A stretch of DNA of 64,000 bases, taken from a virus. The notes under the pieces are model-generated. The model had not been told where the DNA came from and ran no database searches. It saw only the letters and a list, made by a program, of their open reading frames with translations. Below, piece by piece: positions 30,286 through 63,291 of this stretch; position 1 is the first letter of the stretch; the number at the start of each line of letters is the position of its first letter. A program made the position numbers and the translations under genes. Where the stretch lies: positions 1-64,000 of IMG/VR virus record IMGVR_UViG_3300018022_000003; one strand, written 5' to 3'.

Positions 30286-32949
30286 ATGAGCGAGACAAAG
30301 ACATCCTACCTCTCCCCGGCCAGTGCCACGCTGGAGGTGTCGGCGGTACGGTCGCTGGAGCCGTCCGCCTCCATAACCCTGGACCTCGGCATACCCTTCA
30401 CCGTGTTCTCCATCAAGTTCCCTATCCCCGAGGAGAGGAGGTCCTTCCCCGAGGTGGCAGGCGAGGCGCTGGGGGTCATGCTGGACGAGATGGCGGCCTT
30501 CATGCTCTCCCTGGGGTACAGGCAGGGGGTCATAGCCAAGGTGTATGCCCTGGCCATGGAGTGCTATCGGGGGATGCAGGGCCAGGAGGCCCCGGAGGAG
30601 AGGGAGGCCACCATAGGCACGGTAAGGGGGGAGTTCCCCCTGCCTACGGAGTTCGTGAACGAGACCCAGAAGCAGGTGGTCACGGCGGCGAGGGGGGAGT
30701 CCCCCGTCCATATACGGAGGACTAGCACCGTCGCCCTGTGCGGCAGGCGTGCCCCGTTCGACTGGACGTTCCCAGACGACACGGCGTACGAGTATGCCGG
30801 AGGGCAGCGCCGGGTGTTCGCCGAGGTGACCTGCCCGGAATGCAAGAGGGTTTACGGGGAGCAGGCCAAGAGGCAGGCGGCCACGGCCCCCTCCGAGGAA
30901 TCTGCGGATATCTTCTGGCACATCACCTCCCAGCGGAGCGCCGTAGGCATAGATAAGAGGGGGATTAGGAAGGGACGCCGGGGCTATGTATGGCTTGCGA
31001 CCAGCCCCGAGGCGGCACAGGAGTTTGCCGAGACAATAGGGCCCCGGTACGCAATCGTGCAGGTCAGGTGGCCGTACGAGAAGACCGTCCCCGACGAGGA
31101 CTTCGAGGGCGAGGCGATGGGGGAAGTATACCGCATGACGCCCTTTGACATCCCGCCCAAGAGTATCCTTGGCATCCGGTTCTACGACGAGGGCGGACTA
31201 GACATGGAGGCATCCAGCAAGACGTCGGGCAAGGAGGTCAGGCGCATGCCGGTGCAGCGCCGGATGGAGTTCACCTCCCAGCGCCCGTCCCGCCCGTCCA
31301 AGAGCGACGTCCTGAAGGCCATACGCAAGTACCGCTTCCAGAGCATCAAGAACACCCCCAGGCCGCTCTACCTGGTGGTCTACGACCAGATGGGCAACCC
31401 CAAGGGCACCCTCTCGCTCGGCCCGGGGTTCCACAACGACCTGCTGAAGATGCAGTACGGCAAGACAGCGGTAAGGGCCGGCAAGAGCTTCGACCTGGCC
31501 ACGGAGGCGGTGAGGGCGGGCGGGGGCATATTCAAGGGCATAGGGGAGGACGGCAGGGGCGGAGAGCTGGTGTACTTCGACAACCCCGCCAACAAGTCCA
31601 CCCTGGTACTGGACGCTGAGGGCATTACCCCCGAGGCGGTCAGGAGGAAGATAGAGTGGAACAGCTCCCTGTCCAGGAGGGCGGCGGCCACCTGCGAGTT
31701 CTGCAAGGCCCCCTCCGTGGGGTGCGTGGTCAACTATGCCCAGCCCGGCGGCCCCTTCCTCGGCTCCGCCGTCCATGTATGCGAGGGGCACAGGGAGCAG
31801 GGGAAGGACCCGAGGGCCAGCCAGACGGCCTTCGTCTCCAACAGGTGGGAGAGGAGGCCGGGCGAGAGCAGGGTCCCGTACCCCGAGTTCTCCGAGAGGA
31901 AGGAGGCCGGGCAGTGGGGGGAGCGCTCCTACGACGGCGACATGGTCCATGACATCCTGGACAAGCACCGCCCCAGCCACAGGGAGAAGGACCCCAGCGA
32001 GTGGCTCGGCTTCGACGAGCCTGTACCGCCGGCCGAGGTGCCTGCCGTCCTCGGGGAGATTAAGGGGATGGACAGGGGGGAGCTGGACGCAAAGCAGCAG
32101 TATGTCGGGGTGGTGGTCTTCCTGGTGGAGCACGGCTCCGAGGTTCCGCAGGAGGCCCGCCTCCGTGCCGCCGAGGTGGCCGAGGAGCTTGCTGGCCTGA
32201 CCGTGGGGATGGGGAACGCCCCGAGCAAGGACAGGCAGCAGTGGAGGCACCCCGAGAAGCGCAAGGCCCGCCTCAGGCGGGAGGTCGCTGTCCTGAGGGC
32301 AGGGATGCCCGTTGCCAAGGAGGGCCGCTTCCTCAGGGTAGAGGAGATGCGTGCCTGGGGCAGGGGGGAGCAGGACGAGTACTATGCCCAGCACCCCGAG
32401 CTTGAGAGGATAGGGAAGCCCAAGCAGGCGGACTACTGGGACGAGCAGGGCTACTGGGCGGGGGCAGGGCATGCCGCCTCCGGCGTCCTCCCCGTATGCA
32501 CCTCCACGGGGAGGGTATGCCTTGCCTGGAGAAGCCCCGACGTGGACCAGGGTAGCTGCTGGGGAACCATAGGCGGGGCGGTAAAGGAGGGGATGGACCC
32601 GTCCTCCAGCGCCCGCCACGAGCTTGCCGAGGAGACCGGGTACAGGGGCAACCTCCTCCTGCACCCAGCACATGTCTTCAAAAGCGGGAAGTTCAGTTAC
32701 CATAACTATATAGGGGAGGTGGGGCACGAGTTCGGGCTGCGCCCCGAGGGCGGCAGCGCATGGGAGACCGAGGCCCTGGAGTGGGGGGGCCTGGACGAAT
32801 GGCTGAAGGAGGCCAAGACCAGCCCCGGCAGCTTCCACCCCGGCGTGCTGGTCCTGCTCAGGGAGTCGGGCGGCCTCATACGCAGCATATGCGAGAAGGC
32901 GGAAGGAAGGAAGACTGAAAATGGAGAAGCACAAGCACAGGCTCTATAA
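30286..32949 (+). CDS. Multidomain protein: ART-like domain, zinc clusters, C-terminal Nudix
   Basis: 887 residues, inside the tail operon, with ATG four bases after the previous stop. Residues about 135-195 hold a zinc-type pattern ending TCPECKRVY. Residues 203-300 have the outline of an ADP-ribosyltransferase/KptA-like fold: FWHITSQRSAVGI, then GYVWLATSPEAAQEFA, then AIVQVRWPY, ending DIPPKSILGIRF; His210 and Tyr236 would be the nucleotide-facing pair. A CEFC...VCEGH cluster lies near 470-505. Residues 735-860 are a Nudix domain; in GGAVKEGMD...HELAEETGY the EE pair is kept but the usual first Glu is Met and the Arg is His. An N-terminal 100-residue region may attach it to the virion. Domain calls, especially ART, are inference. 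Confidence 0.55.
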   Translation: MSETKTSYLSPASATLEVSAVRSLEPSASITLDLGIPFTVFSIKFPIPEERRSFPEVAGEALGVMLDEMAAFMLSLGYRQGVIAKVYALAMECYRGMQGQEAPEEREATIGTVRGEFPLPTEFVNETQKQVVTAARGESPVHIRRTSTVALCGRRAPFDWTFPDDTAYEYAGGQRRVFAEVTCPECKRVYGEQAKRQAATAPSEESADIFWHITSQRSAVGIDKRGIRKGRRGYVWLATSPEAAQEFAETIGPRYAIVQVRWPYEKTVPDEDFEGEAMGEVYRMTPFDIPPKSILGIRFYDEGGLDMEASSKTSGKEVRRMPVQRRMEFTSQRPSRPSKSDVLKAIRKYRFQSIKNTPRPLYLVVYDQMGNPKGTLSLGPGFHNDLLKMQYGKTAVRAGKSFDLATEAVRAGGGIFKGIGEDGRGGELVYFDNPANKSTLVLDAEGITPEAVRRKIEWNSSLSRRAAATCEFCKAPSVGCVVNYAQPGGPFLGSAVHVCEGHREQGKDPRASQTAFVSNRWERRPGESRVPYPEFSERKEAGQWGERSYDGDMVHDILDKHRPSHREKDPSEWLGFDEPVPPAEVPAVLGEIKGMDRGELDAKQQYVGVVVFLVEHGSEVPQEARLRAAEVAEELAGLTVGMGNAPSKDRQQWRHPEKRKARLRREVAVLRAGMPVAKEGRFLRVEEMRAWGRGEQDEYYAQHPELERIGKPKQADYWDEQGYWAGAGHAASGVLPVCTSTGRVCLAWRSPDVDQGSCWGTIGGAVKEGMDPSSSARHELAEETGYRGNLLLHPAHVFKSGKFSYHNYIGEVGHEFGLRPEGGSAWETEALEWGGLDEWLKEAKTSPGSFHPGVLVLLRESGGLIRSICEKAEGRKTENGEAQAQAL

Positions 32950-38859: not shown

Positions 38860-39243
38860 ATGAGCCGACGCTTGGTGACGACAGGCACTCCGGTCACTTG
38901 TGAAAGATGCTCCCGTAGCTATGAGTATGACCGTAGAAAGGGGCATCATACCAAGATTTGCAACTCTTGCAACGCTAACCGTAAACGGGTGGTCCGCAAG
39001 AGAAAATGCATAGAGTATAAGGGCGGCAGGTGCGAAAAGTGCGGATATTCTCGGAGTTCTAGGGCTTTGGGATTCCACCATCGGGACCGGAACCGCAAAG
39101 AGTTTACAGTATCGAGAGCGCTGTCGCTTTCATGGAGCAGGGTCAAGCAAGAACTAGACAAGTGCGATATGCTCTGTGCCAACTGTCATATGGAGGAAGA
39201 AGAGATTCTGGCGGGTAGCTCAACTGGTAGAGCGCAGCCCTGA
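38860..39243 (+). CDS. HNH endonuclease (homing type)
   Basis: 127 residues (a GTG two codons upstream is an alternative start). Two zinc pairs (CERC...CNSC and CEKCG) and the HNH core LGFHHRDRNRKEF...CDMLCANCHMEEE identify it as an HNH nuclease of the kind found as free-standing homing enzymes in phages. Its base composition is lower in GC than its neighbours, a sign of transfer. Its last 11 codons run into the following tRNA gene and the stop lies in the anticodon loop. Confidence 0.75.
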   Translation: MSRRLVTTGTPVTCERCSRSYEYDRRKGHHTKICNSCNANRKRVVRKRKCIEYKGGRCEKCGYSRSSRALGFHHRDRNRKEFTVSRALSLSWSRVKQELDKCDMLCANCHMEEEEILAGSSTGRAQP

Positions 39244-39284
39244 TAAGACTGAGGTCGTGGGTCCGACTCCCATCCCGCCAACCA
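39209..39284 (+). tRNA. tRNA-Ile (GAT)
   Basis: Seven-pair acceptor TGGCGGG/CCCGCCA with discriminator A and encoded CCA. D stem GCTC/GAGC; anticodon loop CTGATAA gives GAT at 34-36; T arm GTGGG/CCCAT with loop TCCGACT. One mismatch in the anticodon stem. The 5' third overlaps the end of the HNH reading frame. Confidence 0.82.
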
Positions 39285-39294
39285 AGACTATAGT

Positions 39295-39369
39295 GGCTCC
39301 CTCGTCCAGCGGCCAGGACGCTCGCCCGATTAGCGAGAGACCGGGGTTCGAGTCCCTGGGGGGCTACCA
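39295..39369 (+). tRNA. tRNA, anticodon position reads GAT (C33), identity uncertain
   Basis: Acceptor GGCTCCC pairs with GGGGGCT (G-U and U-G allowed), discriminator A, encoded CCA. D stem GTCC/GGAC; perfect anticodon stem CTCGC/GCGAG with loop CCGATTA. Position 33 is C instead of the near-universal U. D-arm style resembles Glu/Asp/Gln tRNAs, so the amino acid is not certain. Confidence 0.6.
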
Positions 39370-39373
39370 GGCT

Positions 39374-39480
39374 TACGGGGCGTAGAGGCATGAGGCGGGA
39401 CACCTCCGGGCAGTTCCAGCCGGGCACCTGGGAGCATTGCGGTACGGTGGAATAAACCAAGCTATGCGTACCGCCCCGTA
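39374..39480 (+). ncRNA. Candidate structured RNA between tRNA genes
   Basis: A perfect nine-base inverted repeat, TACGGGGCG with CGCCCCGTA, encloses about 90 bases. A second perfect eight-base pair, GCGGTACG with CGTACCGC, lies inside and shares its 3' arm with the outer stem by three bases, so the two stems compete. It is not a tRNA (no T loop). Function unknown. Confidence 0.38.
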
Positions 39481-39498
39481 GGACCGGCAGGGGGCCGT

Positions 39499-39582
39499 AT
39501 GGCCGTCCTTTTGGTAATGCTTACGTTCCTGTTCTTCGTCTTGCTCGACGTCGTCGTGTCGAGGGCCCGCAGGAGGGCATAA
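39499..39582 (+). CDS. Possible tiny membrane peptide
   Basis: 27 residues: MAVLLVMLTFLFFVLLDVVV followed by a basic SRARRRA tail, a plausible single membrane helix. Ribosome site is weak. It ends nine bases before a tRNA-Thr gene. Confidence 0.3.
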   Translation: MAVLLVMLTFLFFVLLDVVVSRARRRA

Positions 39583-39590
39583 GGCTTTGG

Positions 39591-39666
39591 GCTACCGTGG
39601 CGCAACTGGCAGCGCACCGGTTTCGTAAACCGGGGGTTGAGGGTTCGACTCCCTTCGGTAGCTCCA
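39591..39666 (+). tRNA. tRNA-Thr (CGT)
   Basis: Acceptor GCTACCG/CGGTAGC, discriminator T, encoded CCA. D stem GCGC/GCGC; anticodon stem CCGGT/ACCGG with loop TTCGTAA; T loop TTCGACT. Reads ACG. Confidence 0.9.
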
Positions 39667-39730
39667 TCTTGGCTGGGGGTTCTGTCAGAAATGGGCAGTC
39701 TGAGAGGCTGCCGGACCCAGCCGCAAGTTC

Positions 39731-39806
39731 GCTGCCGTAGCTCAGTTGGCAGAGCACCGCCTTGGTAAGGCGGGGGTCGGGAGTCCGACTCTCCCCGGCA
39801 GCTCCA
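39731..39806 (+). tRNA. tRNA-Thr (GGT)
   Basis: Acceptor GCTGCCG/CGGCAGC, discriminator T, encoded CCA. D stem GCTC/GAGC; anticodon stem CCGCC/GGCGG with loop TTGGTAA; T stem GGGAG/CTCCC. Reads ACC, by far the favoured Thr codon of the tail genes here. Confidence 0.9.
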
Positions 39807-39812
39807 GTACTA

Positions 39813-39888
39813 GCCGCCGTAGCTCAACGGCCCAGAGTGCCTGCATGGTAGGCAGGCGACGGGGGTCCGACTCCCCCCGGCGGCCCCA
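39813..39888 (+). tRNA. tRNA, apparent anticodon GGT (Thr)
   Basis: Acceptor GCCGCCG/CGGCGGC, discriminator C, encoded CCA. Anticodon stem CCTGC/GCAGG with loop ATGGTAG puts GGT at 34-36 after U33. A32 and G38 are unusual, and the C73 discriminator is unlike the two clear Thr tRNAs upstream, so the charging identity could differ. Confidence 0.68.
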
Positions 39889-39908
39889 AGCTAGCCTGTG
39901 GAGGCACC

Positions 39909-40145
39909 ATGGAAGAAGGGCAGCAGGCCCCCCCGAAACCCAAGACCACGGCGGTCCAGATAGAGCCTGTGGACCCCGAGCAGGTCCAGAAGTGCCTGGA
40001 GGGGCACGTATACGCCTCCGCCAGGTTCGTGGGCGACAGGATAGTGGAGCTTTGGGTGGCCGACTTCCTCCAGGACATCAGGGAGGTCAACAGGCTGCTC
40101 TCCACCAGGCCGGGCGAGCTTGTGAGCTGGAAGAAGCCCGACTAA
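39909..40145 (+). CDS. Small protein, unknown
   Basis: 78 residues; ATG after GTGGAGGCACC. Pro-rich N-terminus (QQAPPKPKTTAVQIEPVD) then a mixed alpha/beta domain (YASARFVGDRIVELWVADFL, then REVNRLLSTRPGELVSWKKPD). Lies between tRNA genes, as early phage genes often do. Confidence 0.55.
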   Translation: MEEGQQAPPKPKTTAVQIEPVDPEQVQKCLEGHVYASARFVGDRIVELWVADFLQDIREVNRLLSTRPGELVSWKKPD

Positions 40146-40150
40146 AGTCT

Positions 40151-40339
40151 ATGTGGCGTCAGGTAAGGCTACAGCACGGGAGCACGGTGATGACCTGCTG
40201 GGTCGAGGCAAGGCCCGGGCTGCGGGCAGGCAAAGCCATCGACCTCAAGGGTGTGCCCGGCATGTGGCGGGTCCTATGGATGTCCGATACCGCTCTGGCG
40301 TCCCCCCCGAGGACGGACTGGCATGTCGGGGGGCTGTAG
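40151..40339 (+). CDS. Small beta-type protein, unknown
   Basis: 62 residues from ATG-TGG-CGT. The pattern MWRQVRLQHGSTVMTCWVEA...GMWRVLWMSD resembles small phage beta-barrel proteins of about 60 residues that turn up beside translation genes. Function unknown. Confidence 0.48.
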   Translation: MWRQVRLQHGSTVMTCWVEARPGLRAGKAIDLKGVPGMWRVLWMSDTALASPPRTDWHVGGL

Positions 40340-40382
40340 GGTAAACGATAGCAGGCCCTATCGCCTATAAGGTACAAGATAC

Positions 40383-40467
40383 GCTACCGTGGCACAGCGG
40401 CGACTGCACCTGCCTTGTAAGCAGGCGGCGAAGGCCCACGGCGGTTCGAGTCCGCCCGGTAGCTCCA
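40383..40467 (+). tRNA. tRNA-Thr (TGT) with long variable arm (class II shape)
   Basis: Acceptor GCTACCG/CGGTAGC with T73 and CCA, identical to the tRNA-Thr(CGT) acceptor. Anticodon stem CCTGC/GCAGG, loop CTTGTAA (TGT). D stem is only three good pairs. Between anticodon stem and T arm lie 14 bases that form a GGC/GCC mini-stem with a GAAG loop, so the molecule is 85 bases and class II in outline. T arm GGCGG/CCGCC is perfect. Confidence 0.72.
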
Positions 40468-40471
40468 AGAT

Positions 40472-40545
40472 TCCGGGGTCGTCTAATGGTAGGACGCTGG
40501 GCCTTGAACCCAGAGACATTGGTCCGAATCCAGTTCCCGGAACCA
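40472..40545 (+). tRNA. tRNA-Gln (TTG), C33
   Basis: Acceptor TCCGGGG/TCCCGGA with one G-U pair, discriminator A, encoded CCA. D stem GTC/GAC; anticodon stem CTGGG/CCCAG, loop CCTTGAA gives TTG; C occupies position 33. T loop is TCCGAAT. Confidence 0.72.
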
Positions 40546-45585: not shown

Positions 45586-47034
45586 GTGCTGACGGTGCAG
45601 ATAAAGGGCGGCCTCGGCAACCAGATGTTCCAGTACTCCGCTGGCCTGGCCCTGGCCCGCCGCCTCGGGACGGACCTGCGGCTGGGCATAGACTGGTACA
45701 GGGAGCACCCGTGGCGGCTGCCTGGCGGAAGGACGCTCCCCAGCCTCCAGTATGCCCTCGACCAGTGGGAGGGCGTCACCCAGCCGAGGGCCGAGGGAGC
45801 CGTCCCTACCGTATCCGAAGGCCGTCCCGGCTACGACCGGGGCCTGGACGAAAGGGTCCGGGACGGGGACTGCCTGGACGGCTACTGGCAGTCCGAGAGG
45901 TACTTCAGGGGGATAAGGCAGGAGCTAACAGGCGTCTTCCGCCCCAGGCAGCCCATCGCCAGAAGGACCGCCAGCCTGCTCCAGGATATCTCCGAGAAGG
46001 GTCCCCGGAGCGCATTCCTCTGCGTACGCCGTGGATTCGCCGGGACGGACCTCGAACTCCCAACGGAATACTACCTTGAGGCCTGCGGGAAAGTGGCGGA
46101 GCACACCCCGGACCCGCACTTCTTCGTATTCTCCGACGACCCCGAGTGGTGCAAGAGGGACTTCCGAATCCCCTACGGGTTCTCCGTGGTAGAGGGGGAG
46201 GATACCACCCCGCTGAGCGTCTGGCAGGGGTGGTACTTCCCGTTTGCGGCGGAGGACGTGTGGGCGATGAGCAGGTGCCGACACGGCGTCCTGGCGGCCA
46301 GCTCCTTCCCCTGGTGGGGGGCATGGCTCAGCCCGCTCCCCTACGGCGAGCGTGTCGTGGCCGTCCCCGGCCGGCGGCTCTTCGGCACCGAGGTGCCGAA
46401 GGGATGGGCCAGGGTAGGGGAGACGAGGGCGGACCTGTGCCAGCTTGCCACCAAGTGGCGGAGCGACAAGGACCCCTCGGTCCTCCACGGGTATACCCCC
46501 TACTACCATGCGCTCCTCGGGAAGAAGGACGTCAGGAAGATGCTGGAGGTCGGCATCGGATGCCCCGACAACATGGAGCACGTGGAGGGCTACTATACTG
46601 TCGGCTCCAACCTCTTCATGTGGCAGGAGTACTTCCCGGACGCAGAAATCTACGGCCTGGACATAAGGCCGGACATCCTGGTGAACGAGGAGAGGATAAG
46701 GTCCTTCCAGTGCGACCAGGGGGACGAGGGGTCCCTGCGCAGGGCAGCGGAATGGGCGGGCAGCGGCTTCGACCTGGTGATAGACGACGGCTCGCACATG
46801 GCGGAGCACCAAGTCCTGACCGCCAGCGTCCTGATTCCCCTCCTGCTGGAGCCTGACGGAATCTATGTAATCGAGGACGTGCTGGAGCCGGAAAAGGTAG
46901 TCTCCCACCTTCCCTACAAGTGCGAGGTCAAGGAGTTCAACACCGTAGCCTCTCCTTACGACAGGCTGATAGTGATACACGGGCCCCAGAGCAGGGCCTC
47001 CTCCACCATCCCCAAGACTCCCCCCGAAACCTAG
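45586..47034 (+). CDS. Fusion: GT11 fucosyltransferase-like domain plus class I methyltransferase
   Basis: 482 residues from GTG. Residues 1-270 match glycosyltransferase family 11: VQIKGGLGNQMFQYS at the N-terminus, CVRRGFAG in place of the usual HIRRGDY, FFVFSDDPEWC, and SSFPWWGAWLS. Residues 287-470 form a separate SAM-dependent methyltransferase (KWRSDKDPSVLHGYTPYY, LEVGIG, IYGLDIRPD, DLVIDDGSHMAEHQVL, GIYVIEDV), similar to sugar O-methyltransferases. One chain could add and cap a sugar on phage protein, DNA or host glycan. The loss of the Asp in the GT11 donor-site motif may mean altered or weak activity. Confidence 0.72.
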   Translation: MLTVQIKGGLGNQMFQYSAGLALARRLGTDLRLGIDWYREHPWRLPGGRTLPSLQYALDQWEGVTQPRAEGAVPTVSEGRPGYDRGLDERVRDGDCLDGYWQSERYFRGIRQELTGVFRPRQPIARRTASLLQDISEKGPRSAFLCVRRGFAGTDLELPTEYYLEACGKVAEHTPDPHFFVFSDDPEWCKRDFRIPYGFSVVEGEDTTPLSVWQGWYFPFAAEDVWAMSRCRHGVLAASSFPWWGAWLSPLPYGERVVAVPGRRLFGTEVPKGWARVGETRADLCQLATKWRSDKDPSVLHGYTPYYHALLGKKDVRKMLEVGIGCPDNMEHVEGYYTVGSNLFMWQEYFPDAEIYGLDIRPDILVNEERIRSFQCDQGDEGSLRRAAEWAGSGFDLVIDDGSHMAEHQVLTASVLIPLLLEPDGIYVIEDVLEPEKVVSHLPYKCEVKEFNTVASPYDRLIVIHGPQSRASSTIPKTPPET

Positions 47035-58077: not shown

Positions 58078-58293
58078 ATGAAGAACATAAGGCTTGAGGT
58101 GCCGCCCATTAGGCAGAAGAGCATCGAGACGTGCATAGCGACGCTGACCGTCGAGACCGAGGACGGGCGCACCATCCGCAAGGAGCTGGACTTCAGCGGC
58201 AACGCCATCGGCCCGGTGAGGTACGGCGCACGCCTTGTCGTCCAAGCGCTGGCAGAGGCGCAGGCAGAGGAGGGGGTTAATGGACAGGCCTAG
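58078..58293 (+). CDS. Small beta-type protein, unknown
   Basis: 71 residues. KNIRLEVPPIRQK, TCIATLTVETEDGRTIRKEL and a final helix. The last codons overlap the ATG of the NadM-Nudix gene, so it may aid coupled translation of that gene. Confidence 0.5.
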   Translation: MKNIRLEVPPIRQKSIETCIATLTVETEDGRTIRKELDFSGNAIGPVRYGARLVVQALAEAQAEEGVNGQA

Positions 58294-59368
58294 CTTCGGG
58301 GTCATCGTGGGGAGGTTCCAGTGCCACGAGCTTCACGACGGGCACATGGAGCTGTTCCGCATCGTGCGTGGCCGCCACAGCCGGGCAATCGTGTTCCTGG
58401 GGTGCAACAGGGTCGGCCCCACCCGGCACGACCCCCTGGACTTCGAGACACGCAAGCGCATGATTCAGGCGAAGTTCCCCGACTTTACCGTCCTTCCCCT
58501 CAGGGACAAGAAGACCGACGAGGAGTGGAGCAGGGAGCTGGACTCCCGCATCTCCGACGCCGTGGGCGAGGTGCCGGCCGAGGTCGTGCTCTACGGGAGC
58601 CGGGACAGCTTCGCCCCGTTCTACCACGGCTCGCACCCCGTCAAGGAGCTGGAGCTGCTCAACGTCCCCAAGGCGCTCAGCAGCACGGAGGTACGTGCCA
58701 TCCTGACCAACACTGTCATGGAGTCGGCGGACTTCCGGGCGGGGGTCATCTATGCCATGGGGCAGCTATGGCCGAGGGTCGTCACCGTGGTGGACATCGC
58801 TGTCGTCCACAAGTGCAGGTGGGGGCCTGCCGGGGCCTCTGTGCCTGGGCTGTGCGTCCTGGTCGGCAAGAAGTCCGACGATGTCCTCTGGCGGTTTCCT
58901 GGCGGGCATGCACTCTTCACCACCGACTCCTTCGAGGCAGACGCCAAGAAGGAGGTCTTCGAGGAGACAGGCCTGGATGTCTACAGCATCGAGTATGTCG
59001 GCTCCCGCAGGGTGGATAGCTGGCGCTGGAAGTCCGAGCCTTCCGAGGGCTACAAGACCCTGTTCTTCGTCGCCGAGAGCATGACGATGGGCGGGCACGG
59101 GGCGGACGACCTCCCCGTGACCCAGTGGTTCCGCCTCGACGACCTGACCGAGGACGATATCGAGAAGGAGCACAAGCCCCTCTTCAGGATGCTTGTCGGC
59201 CACGTCACCGGGAAGTGGGGCTACACCCTGAGGCCACTAGGGGGATGGCGACCCGGCGAGACAGAGGCCAGCATGCCATATGCTGCTACCCCTCTTGCCA
59301 ACATCATAGCTCCCCCGGCACTGATATATACAGAAGGAGACAAGAATGCCGCAGCCGTTGAGGATTAA
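58280..59368 (+). CDS. nadM: Bifunctional NMN adenylyltransferase / Nudix hydrolase (NadM-Nudix, NatV-like)
   Basis: Start set at MDRPSFGVIV after GAGGGGG; 362 residues. The N-terminal nucleotidyltransferase carries GRFQ...HDGH (ATP-binding GRFQPxHxGH form, about 11-22), LGCNRVGPTRHDPLDFETRKRMI over two helices, and SSTEVR (about 135), the ISSTxxR motif. The C-terminal half is Nudix: GGHALFTTD...KKEVFEETGL with Lys for the usual Arg. The reaction is NMN + ATP to NAD+ + PPi; the Nudix domain in related enzymes cleaves ADP-ribose-type compounds. It overlaps the Nampt gene by 23 bases. Confidence 0.9.
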   Translation: MDRPSFGVIVGRFQCHELHDGHMELFRIVRGRHSRAIVFLGCNRVGPTRHDPLDFETRKRMIQAKFPDFTVLPLRDKKTDEEWSRELDSRISDAVGEVPAEVVLYGSRDSFAPFYHGSHPVKELELLNVPKALSSTEVRAILTNTVMESADFRAGVIYAMGQLWPRVVTVVDIAVVHKCRWGPAGASVPGLCVLVGKKSDDVLWRFPGGHALFTTDSFEADAKKEVFEETGLDVYSIEYVGSRRVDSWRWKSEPSEGYKTLFFVAESMTMGGHGADDLPVTQWFRLDDLTEDDIEKEHKPLFRMLVGHVTGKWGYTLRPLGGWRPGETEASMPYAATPLANIIAPPALIYTEGDKNAAAVED

Positions 59369-60785
59369 CCCGGTGTTCAGGACCGACAGCTACAAACTGT
59401 CCCACTGGTTCCAGTACCCGCCTGACACGGAGCACGTCTACAGCTACCTGATGTCCCGTGGGGGGTTCTGGAAGCACACGCTGTTCTTCGGCCTCCGGTA
59501 CATCCTCAAGGCGTACTTCGAGGGGGTGGTGTTCAGCGAGAGGGACATCTTCGAGGCCGCCGCCAAGAGCCATGCCCACTTCGGGTCGGACAAGGTCTTC
59601 AACTACTGCGGGTGGATGCGCCTGCTGGAGAAGCACGGCGGCCGGCTCCCCCTGCGTGTCCGGGCCGTCCCCGAGGGCACGGTGGTCCCCGTCAAGCATC
59701 CCATTATGACCATCGAGAACACGGACAGGGAGTTCCCGTGGCTGACCAACTGGGCGGAGACCATCCTGCTGCACGTCTGGTACCCTACCACGGTCAGCAC
59801 CCTGTCCTTCGAGGTCAGGCAGGCCATCGGGAACGACCTCGTGCGGACCGGCACTCCGTCCCTGCTGGACTTCAAGCTGCACGACTTCGGCTACAGGGGG
59901 GTATCCTCCCTGGAGACGTCCGCCATCGGCGGGGCGGCCCACTTGGTGAACTTCCTCGGCACCGACACCACGTCCGCCCTTGAGCTGTGCGAGCAGTTCT
60001 ACGACTGCCCCATGGCGGGGTTCAGCATCCCGGCGATGGAGCACAGCACCGTGACAGCCTGGGGCGAGGACAACGAGCAGGAGGCCTATGCCAACATGCT
60101 CGACCGTGCCCCGACCAGCCTGATAGCGTGCGTCATCGACAGCTACGACACGCACCGTGCCGTTGCCGAGATATTCGGCGGGGCGCTGCGGGAGAAGGTC
60201 CTCCGCCGTGAGGGCACGGTGGTCCTGCGCCCCGACTCTGGCGACCCCTGCATCGTCATCGAGGACATCTTCAACACGGTCGCCGAGAAGTTCGGGTTCG
60301 AGACGAACAGCAAGGGCTGGAAGGTGATGCCCCCCCAGGTCCGTCTAATCCAGGGCGACGGCGTGAACTACCAGAACATCCTCCGCATTAACTCGCACCT
60401 TACCCGTGCGGGATGGTCCATGGACAACTGGGGGTACGGCATGGGAGGGGCCCTGCTCCAGCAGCAGAACCGTGACACCATGCGGTTCGCCATCAAGTGC
60501 TCCGCCATCAAGCGGGACGGCAGCACGTGGGAGGAGGTCCGCAAGCTGGTGGCCACCGACCCGAGCAAGGCGTCCATCGGCGGCAGGTTCGACCTGCTCC
60601 GCTTCCCGGACGGCGAGGTCGAGACGGTGCAGACGGACGACTGGGACCCCCGGACGGCCATCGGCTGCCAGAACATGCTGGAGACGGTGTTCGAGGACGG
60701 GGAGGTAAAGCGCCACCAGACCCTCGAACAGGTGAGGGGGATACGTGCCACCTACGACCGCTTCGACAAGGAGGAAGAGGGATGA
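59346..60785 (+). CDS. nadV: Nicotinamide phosphoribosyltransferase
   Basis: 479 residues, full length for Nampt. Active-site blocks are well kept: KLHDFGYRGVSSLETSAIGG (acidic substrate residue), the EHST segment with the catalytic His (about 233), LRPDSGDP (PRPP site, about 295) and VRLIQGDGVNYQNI, then GYGMGGALLQ. It makes NMN from nicotinamide and PRPP. With NadM-Nudix upstream it forms a two-step NAD+ salvage route. ATGA overlap links it to the integrase gene. Confidence 0.94.
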   Translation: MPQPLRINPVFRTDSYKLSHWFQYPPDTEHVYSYLMSRGGFWKHTLFFGLRYILKAYFEGVVFSERDIFEAAAKSHAHFGSDKVFNYCGWMRLLEKHGGRLPLRVRAVPEGTVVPVKHPIMTIENTDREFPWLTNWAETILLHVWYPTTVSTLSFEVRQAIGNDLVRTGTPSLLDFKLHDFGYRGVSSLETSAIGGAAHLVNFLGTDTTSALELCEQFYDCPMAGFSIPAMEHSTVTAWGEDNEQEAYANMLDRAPTSLIACVIDSYDTHRAVAEIFGGALREKVLRREGTVVLRPDSGDPCIVIEDIFNTVAEKFGFETNSKGWKVMPPQVRLIQGDGVNYQNILRINSHLTRAGWSMDNWGYGMGGALLQQQNRDTMRFAIKCSAIKRDGSTWEEVRKLVATDPSKASIGGRFDLLRFPDGEVETVQTDDWDPRTAIGCQNMLETVFEDGEVKRHQTLEQVRGIRATYDRFDKEEEG

Positions 60786-61843
60786 CGACCACCATCGAGA
60801 CAAGGACGGCCGAGGTGACCTTCGAGGTCAGGGTGGAGCAGTGGTGGTCAGACGGCGTCCGCCGCCGTGAGAGCACGGGCACGGACGACTACGAGGAGGC
60901 GCTGAGGGTTCTCCGCCAGAAGATGGCGGAGTCCCTCGTCCTGGGCACGCCAGCACCAGCCAGCCTGACGGTCGCTAGCCTAGTGGAGGCGAAGCTGGCG
61001 AACGAGAAGGCAGAAGGCTTCAAGGATACAGCCAGCAACCGCCAGCGGTGGGAGGGCCACCTGAGGGCGGCCCTGGGCGATATAAAGGTGCGTGACCTGA
61101 AGGCGTCCACCATGCGTGAGTACCGTGCCAGGCGGAGGGCGGAGGGCGCACCCGACTCCACCATCAATAGGGAGCTGTCGGTCGTCCGTGCCGCCTACAG
61201 GCTGGCGTGGAAGGACGACTTAATCACCCTGGCGGATATCCCCCACTTCCCCATGGCCAGCGAGGCGGGCAGCAGGCGCAAGGGATTCCTGCGGGACGAC
61301 CAGTACCAACAGGTCTTCGACGCCTGCATGCATGAGGGCCTGTGGCTTGCATCGGCCTTCCAGGTCGCCAACGACTTCGGCTGGCGCAGGGGAGAGGTCT
61401 TCCCCATGCTGGTCAGCCAGCTTGACTTCTCGGGCAAGGGCAGCATACACTTGCCTGACAGCAAGAACGGCGAGGGGCGGCTGATGCCTATGACCGACAA
61501 GGTGAGGGAGATGCTGGCGCAGTGCATAGCGGGAAAGGCCCCCACGGACTTCGTCTTTACCCGTGACGGCGGCCGTCCCGTGAAGTCCCACTACAAGGCA
61601 TGGAGGCGTGCCGTGGCGGAGGTAGGCGACCTGCACTTCCACGACCTGCGGCGGACAGCGACCAGGAACCTCGTCCGTGCTGGCGTCCCCAAGTCCGTGG
61701 CGCAGCAGGTGACGGGCCACCTCGACCCCAAGGTCTTCGACCGCTACAACATCACCGACCTCGTAGACCTGGAGGGCGCAGCCGAGGCACTGGACAGAAA
61801 GTCCAGCCATACTTCAGCCATACTGGAACCTGCAAGTGCTTGA
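60782..61843 (+). CDS. int: Tyrosine recombinase / phage integrase
   Basis: 353 residues. Residues 60-165 are a SAM-like core-binding domain (LTVASLVEAKLANEKAEGF...). The catalytic domain has Arg in GWRRGEVF (about 202), HFHDLRRTA (His-x-x-Arg, about 287-290), TGHLDP and the nucleophile Tyr in DRYNI (about 322). The N-terminal 55 residues may be an arm-binding domain. Its stop codon directly abuts a tRNA-Arg-like sequence, the normal place for attP. Confidence 0.92.
   Translation: MTTTIETRTAEVTFEVRVEQWWSDGVRRRESTGTDDYEEALRVLRQKMAESLVLGTPAPASLTVASLVEAKLANEKAEGFKDTASNRQRWEGHLRAALGDIKVRDLKASTMREYRARRRAEGAPDSTINRELSVVRAAYRLAWKDDLITLADIPHFPMASEAGSRRKGFLRDDQYQQVFDACMHEGLWLASAFQVANDFGWRRGEVFPMLVSQLDFSGKGSIHLPDSKNGEGRLMPMTDKVREMLAQCIAGKAPTDFVFTRDGGRPVKSHYKAWRRAVAEVGDLHFHDLRRTATRNLVRAGVPKSVAQQVTGHLDPKVFDRYNITDLVDLEGAAEALDRKSSHTSAILEPASA
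61807..61823 (+). repeat. Direct repeat copy 1 near att
   Basis: CCATACTTCAGCCATAC within the last codons of the integrase. A second copy with one change lies at 62024. Each copy is itself two CCATAC units. Candidate integrase or excisionase binding site. Confidence 0.5.
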
Positions 61844-61885
61844 GGGCCTGTAGCTCAGAAGGATAGAGCAACGGTTTCCTAATCC
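61844..61885 (+). other. att core candidate: 5' half of a tRNA-Arg(CCT) gene
   Basis: GGGCCTGTAGCTCAG...GATAGAGC followed by ACGGTTTCCTAATCC reads as acceptor strand, D arm and anticodon arm (loop TTCCTAA, anticodon CCT) of a tRNA. No T arm or 3' acceptor follows, so it is a fragment. Its place right after the integrase stop fits the identity segment of attP (or attL/attR). Confidence 0.7.
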
Positions 61886-62589: not shown

Positions 62590-63291
62590 ATGGCAGATGC
62601 AATCGTAAGGATGGTAGGTGGGAAGCCCGTCATCACGGACAGGAACGGGCGTACTATCTCATTGAAAAAGAAAGGAATCATTTACCTGCTTATCGACGTG
62701 TCCGAGAGCATGATGGCCTTTGTCGGCCCTCGGGACTGGCTGAAAAATGTTCCCCTCACAAGGCAGGCAGGCCGGGACGGCGCTTCGGTAAACATCGTTC
62801 CCTGGGAACATATTGGCAACCACAAGACCAAGCTCCAGGTTGCCCTGGCGGGCGTGGCGGCATTTTCAGATACCGCCCTCAAGACCAAAGTGGTGGGAAT
62901 AGCGGCATTCGCCTCGGCTGCCCGTATCTGTCAGCAGCCCACCCATGACAGGGAGAAGCTGGCCGATAGCCTATCCTCCATGGAAAGCCATCCCCTGAAT
63001 GGCGGGGGCACCAACATGGCGGATGCCCTGCGCCTGCTTTTGCAGCCTGGGCTGTCGCCTATAGAGACGGTCATTGTGGTTACCGATGGCATGCCTCAGG
63101 ACAGGGAGGGGGCATTGCTCTATGGCAAGATGCTAAAGGATGGGGGTACGGAAATCCTGGTCATCAGCACGGAGGATGCTGACCGGAATTTCCTGGGCGG
63201 GCTGGCATCGAGGCAAGACCTTTCCATCCATGCTACCGACGAGAACTTGGGGCAGGCCATCACGGACTGCGCCAGACTGCTGAGGGCATAA
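62590..63291 (+). CDS. VWA-domain protein with intact MIDAS
   Basis: 233 residues, ATG after CAGGAGAAAACACA. The von Willebrand A fold carries all three MIDAS parts: IDVSES (36-40, DxSxS), the Thr in GGGTNMADAL (about 141) and TDG (about 164). It lacks a signal peptide, so it is cytoplasmic, as are TerY/TerF-type VWA proteins. TAATG overlap joins it to a J-domain gene. Base composition is less GC-rich than the phage core. Confidence 0.78.
   Translation: MADAIVRMVGGKPVITDRNGRTISLKKKGIIYLLIDVSESMMAFVGPRDWLKNVPLTRQAGRDGASVNIVPWEHIGNHKTKLQVALAGVAAFSDTALKTKVVGIAAFASAARICQQPTHDREKLADSLSSMESHPLNGGGTNMADALRLLLQPGLSPIETVIVVTDGMPQDREGALLYGKMLKDGGTEILVISTEDADRNFLGGLASRQDLSIHATDENLGQAITDCARLLRA

Follow-up and report, generated by a model that had tools for sequence, protein, structure and literature searches.

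Rebuilding of nicotinamide adenine dinucleotide (NAD+) by phage-encoded enzymes was proposed in 2022, when phage NadV and a NadM-Nudix protein were put forward as a means of reconstituting NAD+ against NAD+-degrading (NADase) effectors, and every phage with NadM was found to have NadV as well (PMC9503650). The NAD+ reconstitution pathways NARP1 and NARP2 have been summarised (PMC12300627, PMC12043709, PMC11984713); NARP2 brings together nicotinamide phosphoribosyltransferase (Nampt, also NadV) and a nicotinamide mononucleotide (NMN) adenylyltransferase (NadM or NatV), and in NARP1 the partner of Namat is Adps, a functional parallel of phosphoribosyl pyrophosphate (PRPP) synthetase (PRPS). For Vibrio phage KVP40, the title of a study of NadV and NatV calls the NAD+ salvage pathway functional (Lee, Li and Miller 2017, doi 10.1128/JB.00855-16). 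Here we describe a pair of genes encoding NadM-Nudix and Nampt in IMG/VR virus record IMGVR_UViG_3300018022_000003, of whose 127,426 bases the window comprises bases 1-64000. The biology of such a pair is already described, and the pair in the window is a divergent further example of it. We conclude that it is very likely a module of two phage genes for NAD+ salvage, of the NARP2 kind, whose likeliest benefit would be the upkeep of NAD+ during infection.

Sequence and fold of the two proteins

The NadM-Nudix gene (58280-59368; ATG at 58280, stop ending at 59368) and the Nampt gene (59346-60785; ATG at 59346, stop ending at 60785) both lie on the plus strand, as do all of the motifs described below, and are intact open reading frames of 362 and 479 amino acids. 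They share 23 bp, and a ribosome-binding-like AGAAGGAG precedes the Nampt start. The two overlapping genes that the initial annotation had placed here are thus borne out.

On sequence comparison, assignment of the second protein to the Nampt family is beyond reasonable doubt and chance is excluded. It matched NCBIfam NF006629 over its full length with 547.8 bits (1.9e-164; cut-off 405), PHROG 448 at E=4.5e-145 and a solved chain at 1.4e-132, with solved Nampts aligning along its length, and in Pfam it matched both NAPRTase (PF04095; 158.6 bits, cut-off 20.8) and NAMPT_N (PF18127; 101 bits, cut-off 25). The name of the NF006629 model is nicotinate phosphoribosyltransferase, yet the PHROG and PDB relatives of the window protein are Nampts. 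The catalytic-histidine motif PAMEHST (60030-60050; residues 229-235, with the histidine at 233) aligns with the EHST of solved vertebrate Nampts, and ten phage sequences all share D14, Y16, F181, R184, D207, H233, R295, D297 and the GDG loop, which also align with the solved Nampts. The roles of these residues in ligand binding and catalysis come from established Nampt structures.

Because a catalytic core is common to Namat and Nampt (PMC12774641), the phosphoribosyltransferase could alternatively be a Namat, forming NAD+ directly from ADP-ribose pyrophosphate (ADPR-PP) and nicotinamide as in NARP1. Namat is distinguished by a selectivity clamp, GSX..TRD with aromatic residues at positions 3 and 7, and by an SCH motif (PMC12774641). 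The corresponding stretch of the window protein, GMGGALLQQQNRD (60438-60476; residues 365-377), is Nampt-like: the clamp region reads GGALLQQQNRD, with A369 and Q373 in place of the aromatic residues, and the SCH motif is absent. The partner enzyme is moreover a NadM-Nudix, and the PRPP-synthetase-type N-domain (PF13793) had no match in the 127-kb record, a search that did not include the sequence of Adps itself. Since the Namat clamp is absent, the window protein appears to be Nampt-like and to belong to the canonical salvage route (NARP2) rather than to NARP1. A Namat/NARP1 identity, which we rejected on the clamp motif and the lack of a PRPS-type gene in the record, is very improbable.

The NadM protein is a fusion of an NMN adenylyltransferase domain (residues ~5-160) and a Nudix hydrolase domain (residues ~165-310). 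As a single sequence it scored 31.9 bits against the Pfam Nudix family (cut-off 21.1), fell just under the nucleotidyltransferase cut-off and matched solved NadM at 5e-4, and a profile built from an alignment of 34 relatives matched the solved bifunctional NadM 2qjt at 2.6e-21 across both domains and 2qjo at 1.7e-15. The six best PDB fold matches of its AlphaFold model (mean predicted local distance difference test score, pLDDT, 78.6) were all NadM structures (2r5w, 2qjt, 2qjo), at a whole-chain template modelling (TM) score of only ~0.4, which presumably reflects differing domain placement. The best match among the curated NCBIfam NadM equivalog models was at 2.7e-10, with 40 bits against a cut-off of 409, and the rest were also far below their cut-offs; by these profile scores the window NadM is a relative of the curated subfamilies and not a member of them. 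The profile searches suggested by the initial annotation for both proteins placed Nampt far over the cut-offs and the Nudix domain over that of Pfam, but left NadM under the curated NCBIfam thresholds.

The first nucleotide-binding motif of NadM, GRFQCHELHDGH (58310-58345; residues 11-22), is of the GRFQ..HxGH type with a two-residue extension, the form within its clade being GRFQVHELHxAH/GH (hereafter the long motif); in phages ACP17 and 92A1, NadM has the short canonical form. H19 and H22 of this motif are invariant in the 34 relatives, as is R139 of the SSTEVR motif (58679-58696; residues 134-139). The Nudix box, GGHALFTTDSFEADAKKEVFEETG (58901-58972; residues 208-231), is slightly non-canonical: compared with Gx5Ex7REUxEExGU it is one residue longer and has D for E and K for R, with E228/E229 present and the metal-binding EExGL intact. 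We ruled out a degraded NadM, given the invariant histidines and arginine and the match of the model to NadM structures. The catalytic histidine of Nampt and the SSTEVR motif, whose loss would have counted against the interpretation in the initial annotation, are both present. Its further claim, that all key active-site blocks are visible, holds for His233, the NadM histidines, SSTEVR and EExGL, but needs amending for the longer first motif and the altered Nudix box.

Several features of NadM weigh against assigning the pair to the NARP2 kind. Its identity to solved NadM enzymes is only 16-20%, the first motif and the Nudix box both depart from the canonical form, T136 of SSTEVR varies in the wider NadM clade, and the model has a pLDDT below 50 at residues 131-135 and 141-147, on or adjoining the SSTEVR motif.

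The intact metal-binding part of the Nudix domain, together with a second Nudix domain in an 887-amino acid protein of the same phage, would suit a scheme in which the Nudix arm is foremost and destroys ADP-ribose-derived alarm or product molecules, with NadM and Nampt in support. This is improbable, as the Nudix box is degenerate in some relatives (L046-L050) that keep both NadM and Nampt, and for that reason synthesis appears to be the better conserved function. In the 887-amino acid protein (30286-32949) the Nudix domain is C-terminal (residues 729-839) and over its cut-off, and residues 190-260 weakly resembled RNA 2'-phosphotransferase, which has an ADP-ribosyltransferase-like fold, at a score far under the model cut-off. 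It is possibly a second protein of this phage linked to NAD or ADP-ribose.

Proposed role of the pair and its described counterparts

In the route that we propose, Nampt would join nicotinamide, a by-product of host NADase effectors, and PRPP to give NMN, which the NadM domain would adenylylate to NAD+. ADP-ribose or NAD-type dinucleotides are the probable substrates of the fused Nudix domain, whose hydrolysis of them may limit toxic or signalling products or tune NAD+. The phage would benefit by keeping up NAD+ during infection, especially when Thoeris, Sir2 or another defence with an NADase effector fires. The route from nicotinamide through NMN to NAD+, and the NARP2 label, were already given in the initial annotation; both agree with all the sequence and fold tests that we ran, with the activities themselves predicted. 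The joint presence of Nampt and an NMN adenylyltransferase in one phage, which marks NARP2, is found here. Gene integrity, family, fold, most of the catalytic residues, and gene order and strand across phages are what we observed, and from these we infer the enzyme activities, the Nudix substrate and the counter-defence role. PADLOC returned no defence-system family for NadM or Nampt, and we set aside assignment of either to a known defence-system family.

The main rival is plain metabolic augmentation, in which the pair lifts NAD+ for replication where the host salvages nicotinamide poorly, and any counter-defence is incidental. NAD+ synthesis by jumbo phages has been stated to be likely to secure supply for rapid DNA synthesis (PMC13282480), and the same NadM-Nampt pair is found together with a regulator-like Nudix gene on contigs of cellular appearance. 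Nevertheless, the product set free by NADase effectors is precisely nicotinamide, and recovery of depleted NAD+ has been reported for NARP2 (PMC12300627, PMC11984713), so that augmentation as the whole explanation is tenable but clearly the less likely one. The two roles are compatible and do not exclude each other.

Compared with NARP2 and the phages described in PMC9503650, the window has the same combination of Nampt and NMN adenylyltransferase-Nudix in a large phage and the same two-step route from nicotinamide, but its NadM belongs to the divergent long-motif clade and its counter-defence role is predicted from sequence. The NadV/Nampt of KVP40 is 43.5% identical to the window Nampt; KVP40, however, has no NadM-annotated gene within 6 kb of nadV, whereas in the window the genes overlap, with NadM first. 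Acidovorax phage ACP17 has an annotated NMN adenylyltransferase-Nudix and Nampt as neighbours in the same order, with Nampt 48% identical, but its NadM is only 21% identical to that of the window and has the canonical short histidine motif. The nearest isolated phage that we found with the NadM clade of the window is Tunturiibacter phage Tunturi_5, in which gp218-gp217 have the same order and are 36% (NadM) and 43% (Nampt) identical. It differs in that its genome measures 309 kb, its host is a cultured soil bacterium and the genes are annotated only as cytidyltransferase and Nampt.

Spread of the pair and its position beside an integrase

In 34 of the 35 viral loci Nampt comes after NadM in the same orientation; the contig of the remaining one stops just past NadM. 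The same order occurs in nine contigs of metagenome-assembled genomes (MAGs), and cellular-looking contigs from Chitinophagales, Cytophagaceae and Kapabacteria have a long-motif NadM in it. In the three MAG contigs that we inspected, which looked cellular (L058, L059 and L064), there is, at around 9-12 kb, an apparent three-gene run of an NrtR-like Nudix gene, long-motif NadM and Nampt; the NrtR likeness was judged by eye from the start of a short Nudix-type gene, and this upstream gene is absent in the window phage. Nampt relatives were found in 1,909 of 50,697 phage records and relatives of the window NadM in six.

Immediately downstream of the pair, and not part of it, is a plus-strand tyrosine integrase gene (60782-61843; Pfam PF00589, 3.7e-21), whose start shares 4 bp with the Nampt stop. 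This adjacency led the initial annotation to describe the pair as sitting where mobile cargo would, and one explanation is that the pair was borne by the integrase and moved as a lysogenic conversion module. Right after the integrase, forty bases (61846-61885) resemble by eye the 5′ half of tRNA-Arg(CCU) as far as the anticodon stem, which looks like the remnant of an attachment site and fits such a history. The stretch is a possible attachment site, although a match to the 5′ and not the 3′ half is unusual. It gave no Rfam gathering match and no ARAGORN call, by which a complete tRNA or a group I intron at this place was ruled out, and no second copy was found in the record at up to three mismatches per 20-base half.

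The relatives contradict the cargo explanation for this lineage. On the question raised in the initial annotation, whether relatives lack the pair, a search with backbone markers in place of the pair found seven close relatives (at least 63% identity) that reach the site, all of which carry the pair there; of 20 more distant records, many of them fragments, nine had Nampt and two strongly matched the NadM type of the window. PF00589 was found in none of 12 pair-bearing relatives, several of which are fragments. One relative (L006/G001) is 99-100% identical to the record over most of 64918-108695, with patchy identity near 82.8-85.4 kb, yet it lacks the ~3.6-kb integrase segment: homology ends at 60838 and resumes at 64440. 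In the record this segment (60839-64440) holds the integrase, the partial tRNA-Arg-like stretch, a VWA-domain gene (62590-63291) and a DnaJ-domain gene starting at 63291, and GC content drops to ~58% past the integrase. In L006, Nampt is followed by a small Zn-ribbon-like gene, to the start of which only the first ~19 integrase codons are homologous. This gene, two others and the first part of an RNA-ligase-like gene (a likeness seen by eye, with no Pfam match) are what the segment replaces, and a 3′ remnant of the RNA-ligase-like gene is left in the record at ~64406-64636. Since the pair holds the same place in relatives without the integrase, and L006 lacks the segment, the pair belongs by these comparisons to the backbone of the phage clade, and the integrase segment is best read as a later replacement. 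Carriage of the pair as integrase cargo is accordingly most improbable.

Separate exchange of NadM and Nampt

The window and L006 differ sharply between the two enzymes, NadM being 98% and Nampt only 74% identical, with an abrupt drop at ~59234. At this recombination point lies the NadM tail and linker (59234-59345, plus strand), which is 112 bp long against 16 bp in L006 (96 bp longer), adds ~32 amino acids to the NadM tail and was present in no other fetched locus. In the NadM tree the window pairs with L006 (0.957), and L007 joins next; in the Nampt tree it pairs with L032 (0.912), and L006 pairs with L007 (1.000). Because the two trees disagree, we conclude that the partners have been exchanged separately, and on this evidence the two enzymes of the pair recombine as separate units. 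There is an outside chance that the long-motif NadM clade, which accompanies Nampt in one and the same order in phages and in Bacteroidota- or Kapabacteria-type contigs, differs in function from other NMN adenylyltransferase-Nudix enzymes, perhaps in its choice of substrate or in a Nudix arm turned against NADase products, and that phages swap its Nampt partner independently. To our knowledge, no member of the long-motif (VHELHxAH/GH) NadM clade has been tested.

Elsewhere in the window, seven tRNA genes lie within 1.3 kb (39209-40545), including four for tRNA-Thr (cgt, ggt twice and tgt) and two for tRNA-Ile(gat), and a gene at 45586-47034 encodes a 482-amino acid protein whose first half matches a glycosyltransferase family and whose second half matches a methyltransferase family.

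Phage NAD+ reconstitution gains a divergent example in this pair, whose practical value is as divergent enzymes to test. Comparison with near-identical relatives shows a module that is part of the backbone of this phage clade rather than integrase cargo, and whose enzymes recombine separately.
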